This document shows, one piece after another, positions 18,582 to 58,501 of a DNA stretch of 64,000 nucleotides; within the stretch, counting starts at the first letter, position 1, and every line of letters starts with the position of its first letter. Made by a program: the position numbers and the translations under genes. This stretch comes from Platerodrilus igneus (lineage: Eukaryota; Arthropoda; Insecta; Coleoptera; Lycidae). The stretch spans positions 248,001 to 312,000 of the forward strand of contig JARFIW010001189.1 in assembly GCA_036346225.1 (NCBI GenBank). Direction: 5' to 3'. Under the pieces are notes generated by a model. It searched no databases and was not told where the DNA came from. It was given only the letters and a program-made list of their open reading frames with translations.

Positions 18582-18585
18582 GTAT
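18582..18585. repeat. Target-site duplication (left) of the Gypsy element
   Basis: GTAT, repeated at 25780-25783 directly after the 3' LTR. Four bases is usual for Ty3/Gypsy integrases. Confidence 0.85.
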
Positions 18586-19180
18586 TGTTGCGAGCTACTA
18601 TTAGGCAACCGTCAAACACACAAGCGTTGTAGGGTCTGCATAGTCTCCAGGATTCGAGAATTCTTCTAGCAATCAAACACACAAAACGCCGTCAGCACTG
18701 TTTATTCTCACTGGACCGGGAAGCTTCTCGTAATTACCAGAGGATGAGTCATATCTTTAACTCGGAGTATATATAAGACCGCTAATAAATGCAAGAGTCA
18801 GTCTATACTAGAATGTCTGATATAAATTATATCATTGTAAGGTAATAGTAGTTGAGCTTTTGGGAAGTTCAAGTGTATACATAAATGTTATATGCTGTGT
18901 CTAATATACATTCAGCTTGTAGTATACATAAATAGACAAAGTGTATAATAAATAAATAGTTGTGTTAGTGTTGTTAATGGGCCGATCCTAAATAGGTTAG
19001 TTTAAGAAAATATTAGGGCTTGTAAATTCATTAGTGTAATAGTGCTTCATTGTTAAGTGGACTGAAAACATCTATAAATAAGGCATATACTGTTAATTAG
19101 ACTTGTGAACAGTGAGTAGTAAAGACTCTGGTTATTACTTGTTTTAAATTAAAGAAATGCGGTAGCAGTAGCCCGCTACA
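18586..19180 (+). repeat. 5' LTR of the Gypsy element
   Basis: Begins TGTTGCGAGC and ends CCCGCTACA. The solo copy elsewhere in the window shows the original ends to be the inverted pair TGTAGCG/CGCTACA. A TATA box, TATATATAAG, lies at 18768-18777, and AATAAA-type signals lie around 18945-18955, giving a plausible promoter and polyadenylation region. The partner LTR is at 25184-25779. Confidence 0.95.
18768..18777 (+). promoter_or_regulatory. TATA box in the 5' LTR
   Basis: TATATATAAG, conserved in the 3' LTR (25367-25376) and in the solo LTR. It probably drives the genomic transcript. Confidence 0.7.
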
Positions 19181-19181
19181 C

Positions 19182-19198
19182 TGGTGCCAGGTCTGGGG
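19182..19198 (+). promoter_or_regulatory. Primer-binding site
   Basis: TGGTGCCAGGTCTGGGG, starting two bases after the 5' LTR. Its TGG start pairs with a tRNA CCA end. The implied acceptor stem resembles that of a leucine tRNA; the tRNA identity is a guess. Confidence 0.75.
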
Positions 19199-19259: not shown

Positions 19260-21008
19260 ATGCCTGTAACAAGAAGTCAAAGTAAGAAACTTTAATGAAT
19301 TTCCTTAAGGATTTTAAATCCGGAATAGAAGAAAAGTTAAAAAAAAATGCTGAGAAAATGGAAGATAGGTCGGCTAAACTAGAAGTGACAATAAATGAAA
19401 ACGTAGTGAGGTCAGTTGAACTAGAATCAAACCTTACCGAAAAGTTTAGTGAAAATGTTGAGAAAATGGAAAAGTTGAGTGAAAATGCTGCCAAAACGGA
19501 AATAAGGTTTAGTGAAAATGCTGAGAAAATAGAAGAAAAGTTAAGCGAAAATGCTGCGAAATTAAAAGAAAAGTTGAATGAAAAAACAGCCACGTTAGAA
19601 CAAAGATTAATGGAAAGCTCCGTTGCATTGATAGAAGATTTCACTGAACAGGTAAAAACAGTTGAGCAAAAGTTGGACAGTAAATTGATAAAAATGGAAG
19701 AAGATGTGATGAAGCTGCAAGAACAAATGATTTTACTAACAACACGGCCACTTGAATTAGCAAACGAAGTCGTAAATCAGAACATTCCAGAAATAAGAAG
19801 CACGGAAAGAAGCGAGTCGATATCGTCTAAATTTAAAGTGAAACCACCCACATTCGATGGTAAAACACCTTGGCCTACACATTTGAAACAATTTGAAGCT
19901 GCTGCAATAGCCAACGGTTTGTGCAACAAAGAGAAGGCTATCTCCTTAATAGAGGCCCTGAGGGGGGAAGCTCTTAACATCTTACAAACGATTCCCGATC
20001 ACCAGCAGAATGATTACGGCCTCTTAACATCGAAGCTTGGAGAGATGAGATATGGCGACGCTCACCTTCAACAGATTTACCACGCACAAGTTAAGAGCCG
20101 CTCGCAAAAGACAAGTGAAAGCCTGCAAGAATTCGAAGCGACATCGCCAGATTAGTTAGATTGGCATATCCAACGGAACCAGATAGTTTCCTCGAACAAC
20201 TGGCTGTACAAACATTTGTGGATGGCATTAAAGATGGCGAAATATAGCAAGCGTTAAGATTAGCACGGCCAAAAATGTTAGATGATGCACTAGCTCATGC
20301 GCTTGAATTTGAAGCAGCTAAGCAAACATTACACAGGATGGGTCATAAAATTCGGTCTGACTTGGAGGAACCTTGTCAAGCTCAGAACAGCATATGTAAA
20401 ATAATCAACCGTGTGTTTGAAAAGCGAAAGGCGGAAAGGCTGGAAAGACAACGACCGCGGAGATGGCGTCTACGATGCTGGAGCTGCGGTGAAGTTGGTC
20501 ATATGCAGAGATGTTGTACTCAACCAAAGAAACAACCGGTTGCGCCAAAGCAGGTCAATGTAAGGGGGCGAACTTCAACAGCACAACGTAGTGCCCCGGA
20601 GATTATCATCCGTGCTGCATCGTCGATGGGAAGTCTGGACAGTATTTATATCGATGGTAGAATTAATGGTAGGATTGTCCGATTACTTGTGGATACAGGA
20701 GCGACCAGGACTATTGTGAGACCAGATTTGGTTGGTCGTGGAAAAGTGCTACCTGTATCGGTGTGTCTTCGAACGGCAAGTGGTGAGAAAATTTGTACTC
20801 ACGGAGAGACTGCCGTAACGTTGGAAATTGGAGACAAATTAATTAATCATCGGGTGTTGGTAGCTGAAATTACAGAAGAAGTGACTTTGGGAATGGATCT
20901 CATGAGGGAATATGGGTTTCATGTAAACATGAAAGAAAATGTGCTTCGGATAGATAATGATGAGATTCCATTTCAAGGGACGAGAACCAGACGATGCAAG
21001 TTCGAATG
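19260..21008 (+). pseudogene. gag and protease of the Gypsy element (broken)
   Basis: A likely original start at 19260 reads MPVTRSQSKK, a common Gypsy Gag opening, but is cut off by a stop. The main frame starts at 19295 in another frame. Gag: a long coiled coil (residues 1-130 of the 19295 frame) built of 11-residue repeats of the LSENAEKxEEK type, then a capsid-like region from PTFDGKTPWPTHLKQFE to EMRYGDAHLQQIY. A frameshift near 20140 and TAG at 20245-20247 break it. A CCHC zinc knuckle (CWSCGEVGHMQRCC, 20476-20517) marks nucleocapsid. The same frame continues into the aspartic protease, with the catalytic LLVDTGATRTIV motif (DTGA at 20692-20703) and a closing region around GMDLMREYGF. 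Gag and protease share a frame, so they were probably made as one polyprotein. The frame shifts near 21003. Confidence 0.9.
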
Positions 21009-21908: not shown

Positions 21909-24470
21909 GGAAGGACGAATGTTGTGCAACACAAGATCAATACTGGAGATGCGCAACCGATAAGACAACACCCCAGGCGGCTTCCTTTGGCAGAACGTAA
22001 AGAAGCCGAGCAAATTATTACCGATTACAGGGAGTGATTGAACCCTCGAATAGTCCATGGGCATCCCCGGTAGTGCTTGTCAAGAAAAAGGACGGGTTGA
22101 CAAGGTTTTGTGTAGACTACCGGCGGCTTAACAATGTGACAAAGAAAGACAGCTATCCTTTGCCCAGAATTGACGACATCTTGGATACTCTATTCGAATC
22201 CAAATGGTTTTCGACCTTGGACTTAAAAAGCGGATACTGGCAGGTAGGCTCCTGCTACTTTTGAACGTTTGATGGAGTCGATATTGCGTGGACTGTCCTG
22301 GAAGACATGTCTTGTGTATCTAGACGACGTGATAGTGTAAGGCCGGTCTTTTGAAGAACATCTTAAGAACCTAGAGGAGATATTCCAAAGATTACGCGGG
22401 GCAAACCTTACATTGAACCCAAATAAGTGCCACCTATTTGGAAAAGAGGTGAAATACCTAGGACATATCGTTTCGGAGACCGGAATAAAAGCTGACCCTG
22501 ACAAAATAAAAGCAGTGCAAGAGTGGCCTACACCAGCAGATATACACCAACTACGCAATTTTCTAGGATTGTGTACATATTACAGACGTTTCATACTTGG
22601 GTTTGCGAACGTTGCCAATCCGTTAACGAAATTAACCGAAGATAGACAAGAATATGATTGGAATGACGACTGTCACAGTGCATTTGAACAACTGAAACGG
22701 CTACTAGTTACAGCACCAATTTTGAGTTATCCGAGGATGGAGGGTAAATTTGTGTTGGATACCGATGCCAGTAACACAGCTATAGGAAGCGTTCTTTCTC
22801 AAGTGCAGGATGGACAAGAAAAAGTTATTGGGTATTTCAGTAAGGTCTTGTCGCGTCCAGAAAGAAACTATTGTGTGAAAAGAAGGGAGCTGTTGGCCGT
22901 CGTCAAATCCGTAGAGCACTTTTATAAGTACTTATACGGCCGTGAATTCCTGTTGAGAACAGACCATGCTGCACTAAAATGGTTACTGCAGTTTCGAAAT
23001 CCTGAAGGGCAAGTTGCAAGGTGGATAGAGCGGCTGCAGGAATATGACTTTGACACAGAACATCGTGTAGAAACCAGCCATCGGAATGCAGACGCTCTAT
23101 CAAGGAGACCTTGTCCGGTGGACTGCAATCATTGCTCCAAAATGGAAGAGAAGATAAGTGTCATTCATAGAATGACGGTGACCGATGATATTTGGCAACC
23201 CGAAAGAATACGAGAAGACCAGGAAAAGGACGCCGAATTGGGACGCATTATTGAGTGGAAAAATAGAGGACAACGACCAGCTCGGGAAGAAATTAGTATT
23301 TTAAGTAGGAGCCTGAAGGCATATTGGGCACAATGGGACTCCTTGAAGATTGGAAATAGAATCTTGAAACGACGCCTGGAATGTGAAGATGGCACTGTGA
23401 GACTTCAAGTTATAGTGCCGAGAAGCAGAGTGCCGGTAGTGTTACAGCACTTGCACGATGATATTTCCGGAGGGCACTTTGGCGTGAAAAGAATTCTCGA
23501 ACGAGTGAGAGAAAGATTCTATTGGGTGAACTGCAAAGATGATGTGAAGGCGTGGTGCCGGTAATGTGAATTGTGTGCCTCTGCAAATGGCTCGGTCACA
23601 AAACGGAAAGCCCCAATGAGATAGTATAACGTGGGGAATCCTTTTGAGAAGGTAGGCGTTGATATAGGTGGTCCGTTTTCTGAATCAGAAAAAGGAAATA
23701 AATACATCTTGGTTGCAATGGATTATTTTACCAAATGGCCGGAGGCATATGCTATACCTAACCAAGAAGCCGAGACGATTGCAGATGTATTAGTGAGGGA
23801 GTTGTTTTGTCGCTTTGGAGTTCCGTTGGAATTACACTCCGATCAAGGTCGGAACTTCGAATCAGCGTTGTTTCAAAACGTCTGCAAGTATCTTGGAATC
23901 AGGAAGACTAGAGCCACGCAACTTCATCCCGAATCGGATGGAACGGTTGAAACAATGAACAGGACGTTAGGAAAGTACCTGGCCAAAGTTGTCTTTGAAC
24001 ATCAACGAGACTGGGACCAATATTTACATTTGTTCCTACTGGCGTACCGATCTTAGGTACATGACAGTACAGGATACTCGCCCGCTTGCGTAATGTTAGG
24101 ACGTGAATTGCGGCTACCATGTGATCTTCAGTTTGGATTTAAACCTGGAGAAGAGATCGCAGGTGAAGATTACGTTAGTAAGCTTCGTGAAAGATCAAAT
24201 ACCATTCACGAAAACGTCCGAAAGAATATCCAGGCAGCAAGCAATCGAATGAAATCACAATATGACACGAGAGCACAAGAAGGTGGCTATCAATCTGGGG
24301 ATTTGGTGTGGTTGTATAATCCACAAAGAAAACGTGGTTTTGTCGCCAGAATTACAAAGACAATGGGAAGGCCTGTACGAAGTGATGAAAAGGATTAATG
24401 ATGTAGTGTACCGGATCAGAAGATCTCCCCGTGGTAAACCGAAAGTGGTACACTTTGACCGTTTAACATC
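21909..24470 (+). pseudogene. Reverse transcriptase, RNase H and integrase of the Gypsy element (broken)
   Basis: Reverse transcriptase: [42 protein letters not shown] and [13 protein letters not shown], then a deletion of roughly 30 codons near 22243 that removes the segment before the YLDD box. YLDD itself is present (22317-22328) but TAA follows at 22338. RNase H (about 22740-23100): LDTDASNTAIGSVLSQ, RRELLAVV and RTDHAALKWLL. Integrase: an HHCC zinc-binding region (about 23440-23580, broken by TAA 23562), the DDE core with D in VGVDIGG, D in LHSDQGRNFES and E in DGTVETMNRTL (23640-24050), then a GPY/F-like module (WEGLYEV). TAG at 23622 and 24054 and a frameshift near 24338 complete the damage. 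The protein is inactive but all domains are identifiable. Confidence 0.93.
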
Positions 24471-24579
24471 CTACGCTGGCAACAACCAGGAAGGCTCGAA
24501 TAATGAGAATGGTATTCGACAAGTTATTAATCATGAGCCAAATGTAGATTTTGAGAGTTTTATGGCGGCGTATGGTGGT

Positions 24580-25242
24580 TCCGCTAAGGCGAGATTTGGC
24601 GTTGTTGTTGAAAAACAGCAAGATCTGTTTAGAGCACCAGAAGAGTATTCCCTTGCACATTGCTTAGCTCAAGATTTGGCAATGTCAAGGGGAATAGCTG
24701 TTGTTTTTAAGAAAAAGTTTGGATGTGTGGATGAATTAGTACAACAGCAGCCAACTGTAAGAAAAGCTTTGGTTCTTTAAGATAAAAATCGTTATGTTTA
24801 CTATCTGCTCACCAAAAATTCTTCGTGGCAGAGACCTAGTTATGAACATCTATGGGAGGCTTTGCTAAATCTTAATGGGCAGATGATGGAAAATGGAGTA
24901 ACGAGACTAGCGGTGCCCAAGCTAGGCTGTGGACTGGATTGCTTAGATTGGAGGATAGTCCGAAATATGCTAGAAGTAGTTTTCCAGGAAACCAACGTCC
25001 AGGTCCTTGTTTGTTGTTATCAACCGGTTGCCTACCAAGACCAAGAAAAGAGTGTTGACTGTTACTTCCAAGGACGCGGTGGATGCACCAGACGAGATAG
25101 CTGCCGATACCGTCATCATTCATCGAATTGGCGTCAAAATGTATTTGCAGTTACGAGACGTAACGGTTTTAAAGAGGGGGTAGCGTTGCGAGCTACTATT
25201 AGGCAACCCGTCAAACACACAAGCGTTGTAGGGTCTGCATAG
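24580..25242 (+). pseudogene. TARG1/OARD1-like macro domain and CCCH zinc finger at the C-terminus of Pol
   Basis: In the same frame as the integrase tail, after a ~35-residue linker. Macro domain about 24592-25020: SLAHCLAQDLAMSRGIAVVF, KKKFGCVDELV, YYLLTK and VPKLGCGLDCLDW follow the order and spacing of human TARG1 (OARD1), which removes ADP-ribose from proteins. The TARG1 catalytic lysine (Lys84) corresponds to the Lys at 24814-24816 and Asp125 to the Asp at 24937-24939; both are kept. TAA at 24778-24780 interrupts the domain. A CCCH finger follows (25060-25116) with spacing C-x7-C-x5-C-x3-H, then a basic tail. The frame ends at 25240-25242, about 59 bp inside the 3' LTR. Domain identity is confident; the role, reversal of ADP-ribosylation on host or element proteins, is inferred. 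Confidence 0.88.
25171..25180 (+). promoter_or_regulatory. Polypurine tract
   Basis: AAAGAGGGGG directly upstream of the 3' LTR: the plus-strand priming site. It is also coding in the macro/CCCH frame. Confidence 0.85.
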
Positions 25243-25779
25243 TCTCCAGAATTCGAGAATTCTTCTAGCAATCAAACACGCAAAACGCCGCCAGCACTGT
25301 TTATTCTCAATGGACCGGGAAGCTTCTCCTAATTACCAGAGGATGAGTCATATCTTTAACTTAGAGTATATATAAGACCGCTAATAAATGCAAGAGTCAG
25401 TCTATACTAGAATGTCTAATATAAATTATATCGTTGTAAAGTAATAGTAGTTGAGCTTTTGGGAAGTTCAAGTGTATAGAAAACTGTTATATGCTGTGTC
25501 TAATATACATGCAGCTTGTAGAATACATAAATAGACAAAGTGTATAATAAATAAATAGTTGTGTTAGTGTTGTTAATGGACCTATGGTAAAGCAGTTAGT
25601 TTAAGAAGATATTAGTGCTTGTAAAGTCATTAGTGTGATAGTGCTTCATTGTTAAGTGGACTGAAAACATCTATAAATAAGGCATAAATACTGTTAATTA
25701 GACTTGTGAACAGTGAGTAATAAAGACTGGTTATTACTTGTTTTAAATTAAAGAAACGCGGTAGCAGTAGCCCGCTACA
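25184..25779 (+). repeat. 3' LTR of the Gypsy element
   Basis: Partner of 18586-19180. Starts CGTTGCGAGC (first base mutated from T) and ends CCCGCTACA. TATA box at 25367-25376. Short indels and clustered substitutions relative to the 5' LTR around 25578-25605. Confidence 0.95.
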
Positions 25780-25783
25780 GTAT
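25780..25783. repeat. Target-site duplication (right) of the Gypsy element
   Basis: GTAT, matching 18582-18585. Confidence 0.85.
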
Positions 25784-28379: not shown

Positions 28380-31275
28380 CTACACCTGAAAGTTTAAAAG
28401 ATGTTCCTGCAAGAGTTTACGAAAACGTTGCACGGTCGGAGCCTGCCTAATATCAAGAGGAATAGTATTCCACAAGAGGGAACCGGAAACAAGAAAAGAC
28501 AAATGGAATGTATGGGTATGGTGTATGGGGATAGATAGCAAGTCATCTCGCCTAGTGTTATAGCGCCGATTTGAAAGAAAAGAAAAATGTTGGCTTAGGT
28601 AGAACGGGTTGCGGTTAGAAATAAGTTTATAGACAAGCACTGCCAAGTGAAGTTTTCGCCTATTGTTTAGTTTAAGCCACGACATTCTTGTGTAGAATGG
28701 GGTGACTCTTTCCCAATATTTTAGTTCGAAGATAAACCGTACACAACTATTTTGCGAGCGTTGTAGACGTAAACTTAAATTAGATGAAAGATTGGTATAT
28801 AATGCATCGCAATAATCGAAATGTGGAAGAATTAATGATTGTACTAACTTTAACTTTAATTTAGTCGGTATAAACCGTTTTAGACGCTTAAGAGTATGCA
28901 GAGTAAATAGAACTTTTCTACACACGCTTGATACCTAATCTTTCCATCTGAGGTTTGGATTTTTAATTATAGGTAAAAAGTTTAGGTTTGATTTACCAAG
29001 CATTAACATGGGAAGATCCACGAACTGAACTGATCTAATTAAATTTTGTGTTCCCAGAAGCAAAGCTTGGCATTTGGCCGGATTTATGGTTAATAAATTA
29101 TTTTTACACTAATCGTCAACCCTTGATAGATCATCATTAACTGCCTGGAACGCTTCAATTATTTCTGTTGGAGAAAAATGGAAATAAATCTGCACGTCAT
29201 CTGCATAGCAGTGGTAACGACAAAACTTCAATGTTGTGGAAAAGTCTTGAATGTACAAGCTAAACAAAAGAGGACCGAGTACACTGCCTTGAGGTACGCC
29301 TGTAACCAGGTCAACAGATTGTGAGATGTGACCATTTTCATCTTTAACTTGCTGCGTGCGTTGTGATAAGTATGATTCTACCCAAGAGATTGCTAACTCT
29401 GAAAAATTATTTAGACATTTTAATTTAGTTAAAAGGATGTTAAAGTCGACACTGTTAAAGGCTGCACTGAAATCTAATAAAATCAGTAAAGTTAGTTTTT
29501 GACAATCCATGGCCTTTCTGACATCATCAGTTACCCGCAAAAGCGCAGTACATGTACTATAATTCGCACGGAAACCCGATTGGTATTTGTCTAGTAATGT
29601 GTACTGTTTTAAAAATAACAACATTTGATCAAGTGCTAGGTATTCAGCGGATTTTGAAAGCGCTGGTAAAATGCTAATCGGACGATAACCATCTGACCTA
29701 AAGGGTTTGCTTTCTTTGGTAATGGCCTAACTATGGAGTGTTTCCATACTAATGGAAAACGAGCAGTGCTAAAAGATGTATTAATTATACTTGTTAAAGA
29801 TTCTAGAGCAATTGGGCAGATTTGTGTAAGCATTGAGCTCGATATTTTATCAAAACCCAAAGCTTTTGATTTAATGCGCAGAACAGACTTGTGGACATCA
29901 TCGGTCGACACTTCAGTAAACACAAATTGTGAAAATGAAAGGGGCGGTATACTGATTAAGCGTTTGATAGTATTCAGTTTAGCTGTATTGTCTTGCATCT
30001 TTAATGCAGAAAAATGTCGATTCAGTGTATCTACATGTATGCTGTAAGGCATCTGCAATAATGGTTTTCCTATACCAGCTTTCTTTAAAGCAGCCCAAGT
30101 CCTTCGGGAATCGGTATATGAAGCTATAGAACGATAATATTTTAATTTAGAGTTTCTAATCAACTGCTTGGTCCTATTACGTATACTTTTGTAACGGTCA
30201 TAATTCAATGCAGTATTAACTTTCTTATAAAATGCAAGTGCACTGTCTCTCATTCGTCTCATTTCATTAATTTTAGGGGTTAACCACGGAGATTTTGGTC
30301 TAGTTACCCTAACTGTTTTAAATGGAGCATGAATGTCAAAAATATTGTTAACAAGTGTATTGAACTTGTGGAGTTTAGCATCAACATCTGCTTCCTCATC
30401 GATTTCATGCCAGCTCGCACGTTCTATATCTGTCTGTAGAAGTTCAGAATTAACACTCTTAAAATCCCGGTAAGTAATTAATTTAGGTTGAAATTTATAT
30501 GTTTTAAGTAAATATGATACAAAAATAAGATCGTGTTTAGAGATTTCTAATATCGGTATTTGTCCAAAATTTAGTGCTCTGTCCTTATTCGAAATTATAA
30601 TATGGTCAATAATCGATGATGAAAGGGGTGCATGGTGAGTGGGTTCAAGTGGTAAAATGCTAAGATTACATGCATCCATCATAGTTCGAAAATAATGGAC
30701 CTCAAATGTATCATTCAGTAAATTGATGTTCCAGTCTCCAAGCACGATTATATCTGTATAATGCGGGGCATATTGAAAAATTACCTCCTCAACATCAACC
30801 AAAAACCCAATTTTTGGGGGCTTATAAACAACTCCAACTCAAGAAAAAGAAATTCCGGACGCGCCTTATACATGGAGGAGGAAGATGCTATAAATTTACA
30901 ATTAAGATCATTACGAACATAAAGAGCCACCCCTCCACCACTTTTCCCTGTTCTGTCGTTTCGTATAATTTTATATCCTTCTAACTTGACCAAGGAATCA
31001 GACAAAGTTGGTTTCAGCCACGTTTCTGACACAGCAACACAGTGTGGAAGACAAGACTCAAAAAGGTAAATAAACTCATCTAAATGAGAAAGTAGTGAGC
31101 AGGCATTAATATCACAGCATTGAAACGATTTCGGATGACGAGAGAGTGATTGACAAAGGAGAGCGGAACAAGACGGGACAGGTGACAGGGAGTAGGGTTG
31201 TTCTAGATCAATACCAACAACTCTTTCAGGAAAATCCAACTCAATTAAGCATAAATCAGAAAAATTTTCAGCCAT
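28380..31275 (-). pseudogene. ORF2 of the CR1/L2-type LINE (endonuclease and reverse transcriptase, broken)
   Basis: Four minus-strand segments. 31275-30781 is the N-terminal half of the endonuclease (INACSLL, VAVSETWLKP, GGGVALYVR). 30802-29636 holds VLGDWNINLL, SIIDHIIIS, the linker and the start of the reverse transcriptase. 29624-29109 has LLILLDFSAAFNSVDF, GVPQGSVLGPLLFSLYI and the catalytic HCYADDVQIYF. 28925-28380 is the thumb and C-terminus (LPHFDYCDALY). Frameshifts near 30790 and 29630 and stops at 29109-29111 (TAG) and 28935-28937 separate them. Catalytic residues of both enzymes look intact. It would nick target DNA and copy its own RNA there. The size is normal for the group. Confidence 0.9.
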
Positions 31276-36031: not shown

Positions 36032-36568
36032 TGAAGTGGGCTACTTCTACCGTGTTTCTTTAATTTAAAACAAGTAATAACCAGAGTCTTTATTACTCAC
36101 TGTTCACAAGTCTAATTAACAGTATATGCCTTATTTATAGATGTTTTCAGTCCACTTAACAATGAAGCACTATTACACTAATGAATTTACAATCACTAAT
36201 ATCTTCTTAAACTAACTTCTTTAGGATTGGTCCATTAACAACACTAACACAACTATTTATTTATTATATACTTCTATCTATTTATGTATACTACAAGCTG
36301 CATGTACATTAGACACAGCATATAACATTTATGTATTCACTTCAACTTCCAAAAGCTCAACTACTATTACTTTACAACGATATAATTTATATTAGACATT
36401 CAAGTATAGACTAACTCTTGCATTCATTAGCGGTCTTATATATACTCTGGATTAAAAAGGATGACTCATGCTCCAGTAATTTTTAGAAGAATTCTAGAAT
36501 CCTTGAGAATAAACAGTGCTTGCGGCGTTTTGTGTGTTTGATGGGTTGCCTACTAGTAGCTCGCTACA
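36032..36568 (-). repeat. Solo LTR of the Gypsy family
   Basis: Minus-strand relative of the LTRs at 18586 and 25184, ending TGTAGCGAGCTACTAG in its own orientation, with an exact 4-bp duplication ATAA. It keeps the TATA box (AGTATATATAAG) but lacks a segment of about 55 bp near its start, so it is 537 bp against ~595. It arose by LTR-LTR recombination that removed the internal region, within an already inserted unclassified sequence. Confidence 0.92.
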
Positions 36569-40288: not shown

Positions 40289-40482
40289 TTAATCATCATC
40301 ATTTTTGAATAAAAATATCAATCTTCTTCGGTCTTGACCAAATCTATTTAGGACTTCATTTATAAATGCTTGTTTCTCCCTACCTACCATGTCCTTATGT
40401 ACACTAAGCATGCATAAACCTGATAATCTATCCCCTGACATGCTTAATGTAAGCCACGATTTTACCCGCTTTAGCGTACTAA
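40289..40482 (-). pseudogene. hAT transposase, C-terminal piece
   Basis: Minus-strand frame STLKRVKSWLTLSMSGDRLSGLCMLSVH, the C-terminal hAT dimerisation region, ending in a normal stop at 40289. It continues directly from IERSFSTL at the end of the main piece (43510 side); the two are separated only by a LINE. The 10-bp sequence AGCGTACTAA is duplicated at the break (40473-40482 and 43510-43519). Confidence 0.85.
40473..40482. repeat. Target-site duplication (left) of the LINE inside the hAT gene
   Basis: AGCGTACTAA, identical to 43510-43519. In the hAT gene it encodes the STL junction. Confidence 0.88.
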
Positions 40483-41633
40483 TAGATAAAAATGATAGAA
40501 TAATTATGGTTAGATTGAGTACAAAACCCACAGACATTGTTTTAGTACAGGTTTGCATGCCAACAACTCAGTACGAGGATGAGGAAGTAGAAAAGGTATA
40601 CGAGGATATAAATAGTATAGTGAGAAAAGTAAAAGGAGATGAGAATTTAATAGTTATGGGCGATTTTAATGCGTCAGTGGGAGAAGGTAGTGAGGGAAAA
40701 ATGGTAGGAAAATTTGGGTATGGCAGACGAAATGATAGAGGAGAAAGATTAGTTGAGTTTTGCCAGGAACATAGATTAGTAACTGTAAACACCCTATTCG
40801 AACAACATGTTAGGAGAAGATATACCTGGAAAGCCCCAGGTGATAGGGCTAGATACCAAATAGATTATATTTTAGTTAAACAAAGATTTAGAAACCAAGT
40901 TAAAAACTGTCGTAGTTATCCAGGGGCTGACATAGATAGCGATCATAACTTAGTTAAAATGAAGTGTAAACTAAAATTCAAAAAATTGAGAAATGTTAAA
41001 AGAGAGGGATGGGATCTAGGTAAGCTTAATGATAGTAGGGTAGAAGAGGAATATAAACAAGTATTAGATAATAAGAGCAAAGAGATAGCTGTAAGAGGGA
41101 ACGTAGAAAATAGATGGAAAGAAATAAAACTGACTGTACATGATACAGCAACACAGACTATAGGTAAGAAAAAAATAGCAGCGAGAAAACCTTGGGTAAC
41201 AAAGGAGTTATTAGATTTAATAGAGAATAGAAGAAAGCTTAAACCTTTCAGAGAAGTGGAAAGTGAAAGTAAGCAAAAATATAATACAGTTAGAAATACG
41301 ATAGTACATGTGTGCAGGAAAGCTAGAAATAAATGGATGGAGGAGAATTGTAAGGGAATACAAGACGATTTGAGAGTAGGTAAGACAGACAGGGCTTACA
41401 GGGCAGTTAAAAAGTTTTTTGGGGAAGATAGGAAAAAATATAATGGTATTAGAGACGAGAATAATGAGCTTCTAATAAATAAAGTTGAGGTAGCAGATAG
41501 ATGGAAAAGATATTTAGAAGATTTATATAAGGGAGACGATATGGATGAGTTAGAGAACGACCAAGAAGAGGATGTAGAAATAGGGTTCTCAATATTAAGA
41601 GAGGAATTTGATAGAGCTGTTAAGGGATCTTAA
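40483..41633 (+). pseudogene. LINE endonuclease (5'-truncated) and linker
   Basis: Apurinic-type endonuclease lacking its N-terminal part. Kept motifs are VMGDFNASVGEG, RRNDRGERLVEF, RRYTWKAPGD, YQIDYILV and the catalytic DSDHNLV. Then comes a lysine-rich linker with KPWVTKELLDLIE. It would nick target DNA to prime reverse transcription. The frame is open to 41633, where a one-base shift leads into the reverse transcriptase. The endonuclease class (CFDP2/bucentaur-like) is that of RTE-type LINEs. The methionine at 40389 lies in hAT sequence, so it is not the original start. Confidence 0.88.
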
Positions 41634-42420
41634 ACTAAATAAAGCGCCAGGGATAGACGATATTCCCGCAGAATTAATAAAATATGCAAGTCAGAAAACT
41701 TTAGACAGATTACATGAACTAGTAAAAGTAATATATGACACAGGTGAGGTTCCAATAGATTTCGAAAAAAATATTATTATCCCAATCCCAAAAAAGTCAG
41801 GAGCTGATAGGTGTGAGAATTTTAGAACGGTTAGTTTAACTTCTCGTGCTTCCAAAATACTAACAATAATAATTAAAAATAGAGTAGAAGCTTTGACTGA
41901 GAATTATTTAGGCGAAGACCAATATGGTTTTCGTAAAGACAGAGGGACTAGAGAACCGATACTAATGATTAGTCTAATTATCGAAAAAAGGTTACAAAAA
42001 AATAAAAAGACTCATTTCGCGTTTGTAGATTTAGAAATAGCATTTGATAGGGTTAATTGGATTGTTATGTTCAGGGTTTTGCAAAAAATAGGAATCTCTC
42101 ATAGGAATAGAAAAATTATTTACAGTCTATATAAAAACCAAAGCGTAGTAATTAGATTTGATGAAATAGAAAAGGAAGCTAAGATTAGAAATGGTGTTAG
42201 ACAGGGTTGTATACTGTCTCCCTTGATTTTTAATGTTTATATTAAAGAAGCTTTAAACTTAGCTAGACAGAGAAAAGAGATAGGTATTAGTGTACAAGGA
42301 CAGAAAATAGACATGTTACGTTTTGCAGATGATATAGCCATTAAAGCAGAGTCTAGAAAAGAGTTAGGAGAGTTTTTAAATATTTTAGATGAGATACTAC
42401 GCGGAGTAACTATAGTATGA
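41608..42420 (+). pseudogene. LINE reverse transcriptase
   Basis: Continues the endonuclease frame after a single frameshift. Motifs: KAPGIDDIPAELIKY, NIIIPIPKKSGADRCENF, EDQYGFRKDRGTREPI, FAFVDLEIAFDRVNW, NGVRQGCILSPLIFNVYI and the catalytic LRFADDIAI, all intact. It ends at TGA 42418-42420, overlapping the ATG of the next segment. That is again a one-base frameshift, not a real gene boundary. Confidence 0.9.
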
Positions 42421-43037: not shown

Positions 43038-43509
43038 CTCAGAATAGAAAAGAATTTAGAGCTGCGTCAGACCGACTTCAAGTAAGTTCGAAAACAAAAC
43101 AAAAAAAATAAAAATCAGTTAACTAAATGTCACCATGACATAACTCACAATTAGTTAGCGGTCTGGCATGTTGGCAGCGATTTGTTGCTTAAGCCTTACC
43201 ATAACATATAATTTAACACTTTTCCTTTTTGAAGCGGATAACCAGGTTATATTTCATTTCCTTATAAATGGTAATCATGTATACATGTTAGAGTTCTTTA
43301 ACAACCATCAGGTTGCTAATATCTATGTAGAGCCAGCTGGATAGGAAAAAGATAGAAGGATATAGGAAGACCTAGACCAAACTATATTAGTCAAATTATT
43401 AGAAATTTAGGTTGTGAAGGGTATGTAGAGCTTTTTAGATTAGCACAGAATAGAAAAGTTAGAGCTGCGTCAAACCGACCTTAAGTAAGATCGAAAACAA
43501 AATGAATGA

Positions 43510-43519
43510 AGCGTACTAA
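43510..43519. repeat. Target-site duplication (right) of the LINE inside the hAT gene
   Basis: AGCGTACTAA, identical to 40473-40482. Confidence 0.88.
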
Positions 43520-45541
43520 ATGACCTTTCTATTGTTGCAGTAGTTGGAGGAAATGCCAAACAAATATTCAGCGCAGTTTTGATGGCCGGAAAAAAAGAAA
43601 CTTCATTATCAAGCACATGTACAAAGTCTGTATCTTGTTGAATCTCTCTATTTTGCCAAAGTTCAACCCACGTTTGCAATTGTTTTGAAAAGTTATCATT
43701 GTTGTAACTTCTGGCTATTTCTTCTTTTTTATTTAACAATGCTCTTTTTATATTGTTGTCTTTTAAGTTATTTGGATGTATTCCAGAGAGTAAAAAAGAA
43801 GTCGTAGCATTTTCAGAAACCCTTGTGGAAATAGACTGTATAACAGAATCCAAATAAGGAATAAAAAGGTTTACTCGAAAGTAATCTTCAACACTACTCA
43901 TACGATAATTAGACCTATGAGTTTGTCTTGGTGCAATACGTGGTAATGTAATTTCCAATCCAAAACCATGGGCATGTTCAACACTTTTTTTATAAACCTC
44001 TTTAAAATATTGTTCAGGATCACTACGGTGTGTCTTAAAAAGTTTGAGTAGTTCATCTATGTGTTGTTTAACGGAAAATAAGTTTATACTTTTAGACTGC
44101 AGTGCATTACAAACAGGTTCCAATTTGCTAGAATATTTGGCCATAATATGCAGACAAAGAATAAATTTCGACGAAGAAAGGCAATTTAAAAGTTGACTGG
44201 CCCTATTTCTTGTCTGAGCATTTATTTCACGGTTATGAGCTAAATCTTCCAGAGCGTTCATAGTATCTGCAAAATGTTCTGCACACAACCTCATTGATTT
44301 ATATTTGGCGGACCAGCGTATTTCACATAATAGTGGAATATTAGAAACATATCTACGTCTTAATGGACTATCTCGAACGAAAGTAATTACTTCTTCAATG
44401 GTACCTACTGAATTTTGAATATCCGGAATCTTGTTCAAATCATTTATCACTAAATTTAATCTATGGGACGCGCAGTGAAAATATATCGCTTTTGGATATT
44501 TATTTTTAATAAGTTTTTGGACTCCCTGCTCATGACCTGCCATCTTTGAGCAACCATCAAATCTAATCCAACTAATTTATCCATACAAAGACCATATTCA
44601 TTACAAGCGTTTAAAATTGCAGCAGTTATACCTTCTGCGTTCATCGATGTAAGGACTACAAAGCCTAAAAATTCTTCTCTGACCGAATTGTCATTACTAA
44701 CAAATCTTACTCCAAGTTGTACCCCAGCAATATCTGCACTTTCGTCAGCCAGAATTGAAAATGTTTCACTCAAATTCACATCTTTCACAATTTTTTCCCT
44801 AATTAATGTTCCACAAATTGAAATTATTTGATTTTGAGTTCTGTGAGAGGTGTATTTTGAGTTCTTCTTGCAAAAGTTTAAGTGCTCGTTTAAAATGTGA
44901 TCCCCACTTTCTATTCTGAATTGTAAAAGATCCTCAAAATTACCTTTTTTATCACCTCGGAATGGCAAATCATGCATACCACAAAAAATGACGGTGGATA
45001 TTTAAGGTATAAGTTTTTTGCGATTCGATTCAATCAAATCCCGCTCAGCTTCATTTATTTGAGAGGTAATTGATAGATGTTTTCCTTCAATAATTTTTGT
45101 AAAACTAGAAGCTTTTATAGTTGAATCACGATGCCATTCGGTTGTAGCATGTGCTTTTGCAGAAGCGACAAAGTCATGATATTTTGTGAAGGGCTTCACA
45201 ATGAAAGAACCAAGAACCCCTCTTTTAACAGTTGGCCGAAAAACTACGCAATATTTGCAAAGTGCGCCTTTGAGTTTTGGAGAATACGCAAGCCAATCGT
45301 ATTGTTGAAGCCAGTCATATCTAAAAGCACGTCTTCTTTCTTCGGAATCGTTCTTGAAATTATATTTAGGATCTGGTTTGTAAGGATTTGTTAATAATGA
45401 AAAGCGAACATCGTAGGAAAGTGTTTCATTCGAGTTAACAAAATTGCCCAAATCGAGCATGTACTCATTCTTATCAGTTGAAAGATTGGTGTCATATTCA
45501 CATGTGAGAGATTTTAAAGTATTTCTTTGAAATTCCCACAC
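43510..45541 (-). pseudogene. ZMYM1/TTF-type hAT transposase, main piece (frameshifted)
   Basis: Three minus-strand segments. 45541-45002: N-terminal region with a TTF-type zinc finger (WLAYSPKLKGALCKYC, then HATTEWHRDS). 44977-44456: HDLPFRG, ILADESADIAG (catalytic-core region with the first acidic residue) and the core. 44543 to about 43500: KAIYFHCASHRLNLV, the long helical insertion and FPPTTATIERSFSTL of the dimerisation domain. Frameshifts near 45003 and 44545 break it. The C-terminus lies at 40289-40482, beyond the LINE. It would cut and paste hAT DNA. The upstream side is lost: a LINE fragment starts at about 45575. Size and order match ZMYM1-like hAT proteins. Confidence 0.9.
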
Positions 45542-56022: not shown

Positions 56023-56733
56023 TTATGCTAATCTTTGTTTTATATCTTTTGTGCTTTTCCCATCTTGCGTTGTTTGGCTTCCTAGGTAGCAGAAATCTTT
56101 AACCTCTTGTAAGTTCGTGTTACATACTTGTATTCTTGTTTTTGATTTATTTTCCCCACCTTTGCATACTTGAACTTTAGTTTTAGTTTTGTTAATTTTC
56201 ATACCGTATCCCTCTGTTAGAACCGTTTCCATTTCATTAAGAGCAGCTTCTAACTTTTCCTTGCTAGATGCTAATACCGCTATATCATCTGCAAATCTAA
56301 GCATATCAATTTTTTGTCTCTGCATAGTAATTCCAAATGTCTTTCTGCATTTGACCTTATTCATTGCCTCTTCTATGTACAAGTTAAAAATCAATGGGGA
56401 TAGGGCACATTCCTGTCTCACCCCTTTCCTAATGTTTGCTTCTCTACGTTCCTGCTCTAATTCTATTACTGCTGTTTGCTCTTTGTATAAGCTATGTACT
56501 ATTCGTCTATCCGTATAACTCATTCCAATCTTTTTGAGTATTTCAAACATTTTTTTCCATTTTCCATTGTCGAATGCTTTTTCCGGATCTACAAACCCTA
56601 TATACACGCTTTCCCCTTTTTCTATTGTTTTCTCCATTATCACCCTCAGAGCTAAGATAGCCTCCCGTGTTCCCCTGTTTCGCGTAAACCCAAATTGGTT
56701 CTCACCTAGTATTTCTTCAGCCCGTTTTTCCAT
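56023..56733 (-). pseudogene. LINE reverse transcriptase
   Basis: GENQFGFTRNRGTREAIL, GFVDPEKAFD, RKGVRQECALSPLIFNLYIE and the catalytic LRFADDIAVL are present; FCYLGSQTTQDGK starts the thumb. Only the G of RQGC is replaced (RQEC). The first part of the domain, to the KAPGTDKVQ block, lies in the preceding frame. Confidence 0.87.
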
Positions 56734-56878
56734 TCGTCTTTGTACAATTCTAGTTAATATTTTTGATACGTGTGTTGTTAAACTTATTGTTCGAAAATTT
56801 TCACATCTATCTGCGCCTTTCTTTTTTGGTATGGTTACTATGATGTTAAGTTTGAAATCTTTAGGTATCTCACCTGTT

Positions 56879-57550
56879 TCATACCATATAGCTTACAAGT
56901 TGGAAGAGACGTTCTGTTACTGCTTGACCAGCGGCTTTTAGAGTCTGTGCTTGCACCTTATCTGTACCCGGCGCCTTACCATTTTTCAGACCCTTTAATG
57001 CTAATTCAAATTCATCTCTAAGTATAGGATATCCCAAGTCATCATTTTCAATGTCTGATTCCTTTTCTAATGCAGTTAGTTCTTCTCCTGCATATAAATT
57101 CCCTATATATTCTTGCCATCTACCCACTTTCTCTACATTTTCTATAATGACATTTCCTCCCGCATCCCTTATATTTTTGCTATACGGTTTTATATCCCTA
57201 AAATTCATTCTAATTAATTTGTATGCTTCGTCTGTCTTTCCTATTTCCATCTTCGTTTGTACCTCTTTGCACTTTTCATCAATCCATTGTTCTTTAGCTT
57301 TCCTGCATTTTAGAATAATTTCCAATTTTATGGCTTTGTATCTCTGTTTTCCTGTTTCGTCTGATTTATTTTTGTATTTTCGTCTTTCTTCTATTAAATT
57401 CAGGATATCCTTTGTTATCCATGGTTTCTTATTTTCTTTTTGTGTATACCCCAGAATATCTCTGGCCGCCATGTCTAGGCTGGATTTAATGTTATTCCAT
57501 TCTGTTTCTACTTCCTTAGTAGCAGATATTTTTCCGATATCTTTGAGCAA
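56879..57550 (-). pseudogene. LINE linker and start of reverse transcriptase
   Basis: Basic, helical linker with RDILGYTQKENKKPWITKD, KCRKAKEQWIDEK and ILRDEFELALKGLKNGKAPG. This sequence recurs in the copies at 27780 (+), 50515 and 63780. Confidence 0.82.
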
Positions 57551-57598
57551 TTCATTTGACTTTTTTTCGAATCTTTCTTGAATATCTTTATCTTTTAG

Positions 57599-58501
57599 TT
57601 ACTGTAAGTCCAAGTGCATTTTTCCGTTTCTTTTTTTCACATTCTTAAATTTAAGTGCGGCCTTCATAATTACGATGTTGTGGTCAGTATCTATATCTGC
57701 TTCTGGGTAGCTTTTACAGTCTTTTACTTGATTCCTAAACCGTTGTCTAACAAGAATGTAATCTATTTGATATCTTCCTATATCTCCTGGCATCTTCCAC
57801 GTATATCGTCTTCTACCATGATGTTGAAATAACGTGTTTGTGATGATTAAATTGTTCTTGTCGCAAAATTCTATCAGCCTATTTCCCCTGTCGTTTCTCG
57901 TGCCTAAACCAAATAAACCTACTACCGCTCCTTCCCTACCCTCACCTACCACGGCATTAAAATCCCCCGTAATTATTAAGTTTTTATGTCCTTTTACGTA
58001 TCTTAATATGTCTTCGATATCTTTGTAGATGGCTTCTACCTCTTCGTCACTGTAGCTAGAGGTGGGCATGTATACTTGTATTATTACTGTGTTTACCAGT
58101 TTAGATTCAAATCTAACCATGAGTACTCTTTCGTTCTTTTGTAAGTAATTTTCTACACAGTATCCTATCTTTTTCCGCATGACTATCCCCACACCCAAAT
58201 TTCCTTCCTCTGCCACTGTATGAATTACCCTGAAGTCTCCACTCTAAAAATCCCCCGCCTCTGGCCACCGAACTTCGCTAATCCCTACTATGTCTAATGA
58301 TAACCTATTCATTTCGATTTTTAGGTTCTCTAACTTACCTACTTGCTTCATACTTCTAACATTCCACGCTCCGACTCGCAGAATGTTCCTGACTCTTATT
58401 TTTAACTTTCCGATCGCATCCTCCGAAGTAGTCCCCTCCCGGAGATCCGAATGGGGGACTATTTTAACTCCGAAATCTTTTACCCCAGAGAATGCCATCA
58501 T
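57599..58501 (-). pseudogene. LINE endonuclease
   Basis: 58501-58244 contains VGAWNVRSMKQVGKLENLK and LDIVGISEVRW (endonuclease start). 58216-57599 contains VIIQVYMPTSSYSDEEVEAI, ITGDFNAVVGEGREG, GTRNDRGNRLIEF, RRYTWKMPGD and DTDHNIVIM, in which the catalytic SDH is changed to TDH. A stop near 58240 separates the two. Confidence 0.87.

Follow-up and report, generated by a model that had tools for sequence, protein, structure and literature searches.

A 64,000-nucleotide stretch of the genome of the lycid beetle Platerodrilus igneus (contig JARFIW010001189.1, positions 248,001 to 312,000; hereafter the window, in whose own coordinates positions are given) contains a degenerate Ty3/Gypsy-type retrotransposon in which the coding sequence continues past the C-terminal module of the integrase into a macro domain of the TARG1/OARD1 type. 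Capture of a TARG1-type domain by this element, as proposed in a preliminary description of the sequence, is well supported as homology by the sequence comparisons described here, and it is equally well supported that the macro-carrying lineage belongs, wherever a host is named, to beetles. Most likely the domain was captured once by a Ty3/Gypsy lineage, behind the integrase module, and was then kept, and a large family of beetle retrotransposons appears to have retained an enzyme under selection.

In the window copy, the open reading frame (ORF) that includes the integrase C-terminal module is open from 24262 to 24777 and enters the macro domain directly, as the preliminary description had it, but the domain (about 24607-25011) is then split by a TAA codon at 24778-24780, so this copy is not one open frame across it. 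The same frame resumes beyond the TAA and ends at 25242. When the pieces on the two sides of this stop were searched separately, human TARG1 (C6orf130) was the best PDB match for both, at E=7e-12 for the N-terminal piece (24523-24777), which matched nothing else at E<=1, and at E=1e-17 and 67 bits for the C-terminal piece (24781-25183), for which the next macrodomain scored 22.6 bits. Lower-ranked macrodomains for the C-terminal piece, including 5m31, which we take to be a DarG, reached 23 bits or less. The closest PDB sequence is therefore TARG1 and not another macrodomain, as the preliminary description had anticipated, and the significant E-values of two separately searched pieces led us to reject a chance resemblance. 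The Pfam Macro model scores 17.5 bits on the window piece, below its cut-off of 22. Codons for the equivalents of the catalytic residues Lys84 and Asp125 of TARG1, which had been reported as conserved, are indeed present at 24814-24816 and 24937-24939.

The element around the domain has the features of a Ty3/Gypsy retrotransposon on the forward strand: long terminal repeats (LTRs) with TG..CA ends, a short target duplication, a polypurine tract, and the order protease, RNase H, integrase zinc finger, integrase core and C-terminal module in Pfam scans, with the end of the reverse transcriptase recognized by eye. The 5' LTR (18586-19180, with TG...CA ends) is a direct repeat of the 3' LTR (25184-25779), and GTAT stands both before the first (18582-18585) and after the second (25780-25783). 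Between the two LTRs, 28 of the 591 ungapped positions (4.7%) are different, and the 3' LTR of this copy begins with CG, unlike the TG..CA ends. One base past the 5' LTR is a stretch resembling a primer-binding site that begins with TGG (19182-19198), followed by a Gag-like ORF with a long coiled-coil N-terminal part (19295-20152; a weak PNMA match at E=0.005 and an Apolipoprotein-type coil, both below cut-off) and by a piece with a zinc knuckle and aspartyl protease (20275-21006; gag-asp_proteas at 42 bits, zf-CCHC at 18 bits, below its cut-off of 20.8). The end of the reverse transcriptase, the RNase H (RT_RNaseH, 114 bits) and the integrase H2C2 finger (Integrase_H2C2, 53.5 bits) occupy 22413-23561, and the integrase core (rve, 57.8 bits) occupies 23631-24053. 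Frame changes and stops occur along pol, and one such shift, near 24338, places the integrase core of this copy in a different frame from the module and the macro domain.

The GPY/F-like C-terminal module (24340-24474; Integrase_p58_C at 48 bits, cut-off 27) shares its frame with the macro domain and is joined to it by a linker (24475-24606) with FExFM and KARxGV motifs, which recur in several but not all related elements, P0014 described below being one that lacks them. Downstream of the macro domain the polypurine tract (25171-25180) is in frame and encodes FKEG, and FKEG or LKEG residues also occur near the ends of the related proteins P0014 and P0008. The sequence 24580-25242 had been described as running into the polypurine tract and then the LTR; this order holds, but the ORF ends inside the LTR, since the last 59 bp (25184-25242) already belong to the 3' LTR. 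With the frame and linker common to related elements and the end of the protein encoded by the polypurine tract, we rejected the possibility that a host exon merely adjoins the element.

We searched the P. igneus assembly (2.71 Gb, 1723 contigs) with this 663-base segment and with human TARG1; candidates at first look are unconfirmed copies, and scored counts are lower bounds. The DNA search gave 2823 candidates, and all 40 that were scored matched, namely the window and 39 other places at 95-96% identity. The protein search gave 8976 candidates, and all 150 that were scored matched at 45-50% identity, 135 of them without a stop inside the match. The longest open frame has 1653 codons; the shares of open frames are biased upward because copies were picked by best score. 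After removal of 7 of 30 loci as duplicates, 23 segments from the protein search joined the window and the 39 DNA matches to give 63 distinct segments with a median pairwise difference of 4.6%. Thirty-eight of these are free of stops, 32 have neither a stop nor an indel, and 25 have a stop; the TAA of the window is present in two, counting the window itself. One further locus, L092 (C1392:430900-431700), holds a diverged copy of the element's macro domain with stops and an MSGGIA loop (S-G in place of S/T-R/K) and perhaps belongs to an older subfamily.

Relatives outside this genome were collected by a protein search that started from the window piece and the jgi fragment P0001, which is 55% identical to the window over 76 residues of integrase module and linker. 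This yielded 260 proteins, of which 120 are listed. Eight of the 120 contain the macro domain in whole or in part by a profile built from P0003, P0008, P0009 and P0014, four proteins that match it by construction and are included in the count. P0002 and P0006 (both partial) come from Aromia moschata, P0004 and P0005 (both partial) as well as P0008 from Molorchus minor, and P0009 from Leptinotarsa decemlineata, the first two hosts being longhorn beetles and the third a leaf beetle; P0003 and P0014 are the remaining two carriers. P0004 and P0006 match the profile over just 22 and 28 residues. All four relatives with a whole domain match human TARG1 best in the PDB (P0014 at 117, P0008 at 108, P0003 at 101 and P0009 at 91 bits), with the next macrodomain at 27 bits at most, and so the placement by sequence search that was called for earlier extends from the window pieces to these relatives. 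The predicted proteins P0003, P0009 and P0014 combine a whole macro domain with sequence of the integrase module, and in P0002, P0004, P0005, P0006 and P0008 one or both are partial. The segment is thus present, at least in part, in proteins from other sources as well as in the 39 further scored DNA matches of its own genome, which answers the earlier question of whether other copies carry it and led us to reject a one-off capture by the window copy.

Among the element sequences with reliable coverage, the equivalent of Lys84 is kept in six of six and that of Asp125 in five of five, the Asp of P0005 having been excluded as an alignment artefact at a cut end; the Lys84/Asp125 dyad of TARG1/OARD1 is in this sense a property of the element domains. 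An AlphaFold2 model of P0014, for which ten sequences were used, gives block means of 75-98 on the predicted local distance difference test (pLDDT) over residues 61-200, the macro part, and mostly below 50 in the linker and tail, giving a whole-model mean of 65.1 and a predicted template modelling score of 0.53.

In a midpoint-rooted integrase tree of 118 sequences, P0002 to P0006 and the window fall in one clade of 15 (SH-like support 0.894), P0008, P0009 and P0014 having too short an integrase part for inclusion, and no macro domain was found in the eight proteins outside this clade that have at least 60 residues past the integrase module. Neither a search of the protein collection with the second half of the macro domain alone nor scans of IMG/VR and GTDB gave a lead. 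In a tree of the domain itself, the four relatives cluster together, apart from the human and the five phage TARG1-like proteins, at a bootstrap support of 100, and in half-domain trees the N- and C-terminal pieces of the window fall inside the element clade with support of 93 and 90. A larger domain tree, with three copies and two other TARG1-like repeats from the P. igneus genome added, again gives the element clade a support of 100. The two repeats pair outside it at 99 and are placed as its nearest neighbours, at a support of only 42.

These repeats belong to a second, separate, multi-copy TARG1-like family of the same genome, represented by L083, L084, L086, L087, L088, L090 and L091, which scores at least 72 bits at 15 places and is not a proven host gene. 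Its MGAGIA loop is unchanged in six loci, and copies have stops. L084 is intronless across query residues 7-137, and the similarity of L084, L086 and L090 to L087 extends about 1 kb upstream. The family could consist either of OARD1 retropseudogenes or of another element with a captured TARG1.

Retention of the domain is suggested first by comparison with distant relatives. Between the window and P0003 or P0014 the macro domain is 44-45% identical, the linker in the same ORF 26% and 16%, respectively, and the integrase end 69% and 73%. Within P. igneus, we classified changes over 24580-25183 by the number of copies sharing them in the 62 segments other than the window, after dropping 67 multi-allelic sites and those for which no two codons differed at that position alone. 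Singletons comprise 110 nonsynonymous (N) and 50 silent (S) changes and 8 stops, spread evenly over codon positions and close to the roughly 0.67-0.70 N to 0.25-0.28 S expected under neutrality. Changes common to at least five copies comprise 6 N and 12 S with one stop (Fisher p=0.007 against singletons); 11 of the 19 fall at third positions, and the macro domain alone has 5 N and 8 S in this class against 75 N and 32 S among singletons (p=0.03). Silent enrichment among widely shared changes together with neutral-like singletons is consistent, in a small sample, with active lineages under purifying selection and dead copies in decay.

With modest confidence, we lean toward one old capture that was retained as a de-ADP-ribosylase tethered to the integrase. 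In this model, the macro domain would be made as the C-terminal part of Pol, would either stay joined to the integrase or be cut off beside it, and would travel with the complementary DNA (cDNA) into the nucleus. A TARG1 domain carried in Pol behind the integrase would be delivered to the point at which cDNA ends meet nicked target DNA. There its Lys/Asp dyad could strip ADP-ribose from DNA ends, from single-stranded cDNA, or, at the nicked integration site with its PARP activity, from integrase and histones. An alternative target would be chromatin proteins that carry a mark for silencing, and in either case integration or expression would not be blocked. The placement of the domain behind the integrase is read directly from the sequence, and its delivery, activity and target are what we infer from that placement. 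A retained eraser domain suggests that retrotransposons may use it against host marking or repair, and it may, as proposed earlier, counter PARP-based silencing or repair. A narrower version, in which the domain cleans ADP-ribose off the element's own cDNA or cDNA ends, strikes us as rather doubtful. If it were true, insects would be using DNA ADP-ribosylation against reverse-transcribing elements, and, as we know of no earlier retroelement counter-measure against DNA ADP-ribosylation, it would be the first.

Human TARG1 reverses thymidine ADP-ribosylation in DNA, and the K84A mutant fails to rescue cells from DNA ADP-ribosylation (PMC8501950). TARG1 also acts on ADP-ribosylated DNA ends, more weakly than others, with D125A inactive, and DNA breaks activate PARPs 1-3 (PMC5725667). 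TARG1 is thought to use a Lys84/Asp125 dyad, which is absent from DarG although the Lys is present (PMC9411070).

Several observations weigh against a retained de-ADP-ribosylase in this lineage. The MGxGI loop common to human and five phage TARG1-like proteins, perhaps a defining feature of the TARG1 family, is missing from the element domains: in all seven aligned element sequences that cover the loop, S or T replaces the first G of MGxG and R or K follows (7/7 at each position), where the human and phage proteins have G and then A or L; the diverged copy L092 has S and G. The altered loop presumably adjoins the ligand pocket, and substrate binding could be changed or weakened. In P0009, three residues around the catalytic Asp are lost. 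P0010 and P0013 are in the same integrase clade, extend 96 and 97 residues past the module, and lack the macro domain. Of the evidence on neutral evolution, which the preliminary description named as a refuting outcome, deep protein conservation and changes shared among at least five copies, a class of just 19 sites, argue against neutrality, but changes in two to four copies do not: these look neutral (39 N and 23 S with one stop) and are statistically indistinguishable from singletons (p=0.43).

The altered loop, beside what we presume is the ligand pocket, would also suit a reader rather than an eraser, a macro domain that would bind ADP-ribose, either on chromatin or on PARP1 at breaks, and direct integration to such places as the chromodomain of chromoviruses does. 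We regard this as the main rival, possible if on the improbable side, as both catalytic residues are kept wherever they are reliably covered and a pure reader need not keep Lys84. The position behind the integrase is the same as that of the chromodomain (PMC3605345). An eraser aimed at silencing factors, which would allow the element to be transcribed and have no role in integration, seems unlikely. SIRT6 mono-ADP-ribosylates KAP1 and thereby silences L1 (PMC4695847), and in Drosophila parp-1 mutants more mobile elements go up than down, many of them of the gypsy superfamily and not all significantly, but the same paper allows that this effect may be indirect (PMC7712786), and as a part of Pol the domain would probably be low in amount and mostly packaged.

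The broken window copy, the stops in 25 of 63 segments and the neutral look of changes in two to four copies are what would be expected of a captured passenger carried without function, but we judge this very unlikely given that conservation between distant relatives extends to the macro domain but not to the flanking linker, that changes in at least five copies are enriched for silent ones, and that 135 of 150 scored copies, the best-matching ones, are stop-free in the domain. Least probable of all are several independent young captures of host OARD1 by related elements, for which the absence of host OARD1 from the tree set and of the common linker from P0014 leave some room, against monophyly of the element macro domains at bootstrap 100 with a common altered loop, same-genome TARG1-like repeats that keep MGAG and fall outside that clade, and a linker common, to varying degree, to the other relatives.

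The macro domain of the window is followed by a putative C-x7-C-x5-C-x3-H finger at 25060-25116. The CCCH spacing given in the preliminary description is correct, but Pfam CCCH models remain below cut-off in the window; in P0009, a finger of identical spacing passes (zf-CCCH, 22.7 bits against a cut-off of 20.5). No finger was seen in P0003 or P0014 on comparison of the relatives, and in P0014 the macro domain leads into a short tail with residues found at the polypurine tract of the window. Because P0009 has the finger and P0003 and P0014 do not, the macro domain looks like the general part of the lineage and the finger like an optional one.

Elsewhere in the window, a solo LTR of the same family lies on the reverse strand at 36032-36568, flanked by TTAT target duplications, and most of it aligns with the 5' LTR at about 90% identity; besides this, no internal element sequence was found in the rest of the 64 kb. 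Remnants of non-LTR retrotransposons with matches to Exo_endo_phos_2 and/or RVT_1 are present at 29112-29624 (reverse), 40389-42417 (forward) and 56026-58216 (reverse). ORFs at 43470-45541 on the reverse strand, which we take to resemble a hAT-type or ZMYM6-like transposase, have no Pfam match at 0.001.

The preliminary description knew of no Gypsy lineage with such a module, and none with a macro or TARG1 domain appears in the open-licence literature among the matches listed. A captured cellular gene in an LTR element is a known kind of event, and what seems new is the combination and the place, with an earlier description possible in subscription papers or in repeat databases such as Repbase. 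If a catalytic TARG1 is indeed tethered to a Gypsy integrase at high copy number in several beetles, then ADP-ribosylation would act against insect retrotransposons, and the element would offer a direct enzyme test of whether it acts at cDNA, integrase or chromatin.

Viral macrodomains are a well-known counter-defence of RNA viruses and form the background to a Gypsy-borne TARG1. Those of plus-strand RNA viruses resemble it as virus-borne de-ADP-ribosylating domains, but at E<=1 neither window piece has one of them as a PDB match. The DarG antitoxin and phage TARG1-like proteins share a related macro domain in a prokaryotic counter-defence or phage setting; they differ in weaker profile matches (41-48 bits), prokaryotic hosts and the lack of an integrase fusion, with DarG also lacking the dyad. 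The weaker matches and the trees, from which DarG itself is absent, led us to reject a DarG or phage origin. Lactobacillus phages LpeD and LP65, Fusobacterium phage FNU3, Lysinibacillus phage LC76P1 and Bacillus phage G encode stand-alone TARG1-like proteins with both catalytic residues in all five, and our guess is that these act against a DNA ADP-ribosylation defence.

A looser precedent comes from fish endogenous retroviruses with macro-domain or CNPase ORFs, reported with reference to Basta et al. 2009 (PMC4977317). These are likewise reverse-transcribing elements that carry a macro-domain gene, but they are vertebrate retroviruses and the macro domain, as described there, is an additional ORF. 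Chromoviruses provide the parallel in position, as their integrase carries an additional, chromatin-related domain at its C-terminus (PMC3605345). Pfam scans, which covered the window pieces and ten relatives, list no chromodomain, and the beetle elements appear to have in its place an enzyme fold with catalytic residues. The closest likeness is to TARG1/OARD1 itself (C6orf130, of the ALC1-like macrodomain class), by far the best PDB match and the source of the conserved Lys84/Asp125 dyad. From it the element domain differs in its fusion behind a Gypsy integrase, in being 36-46% identical to the human protein across whole domains, and in the altered MGAG loop, which makes it a natural TARG1 variant.
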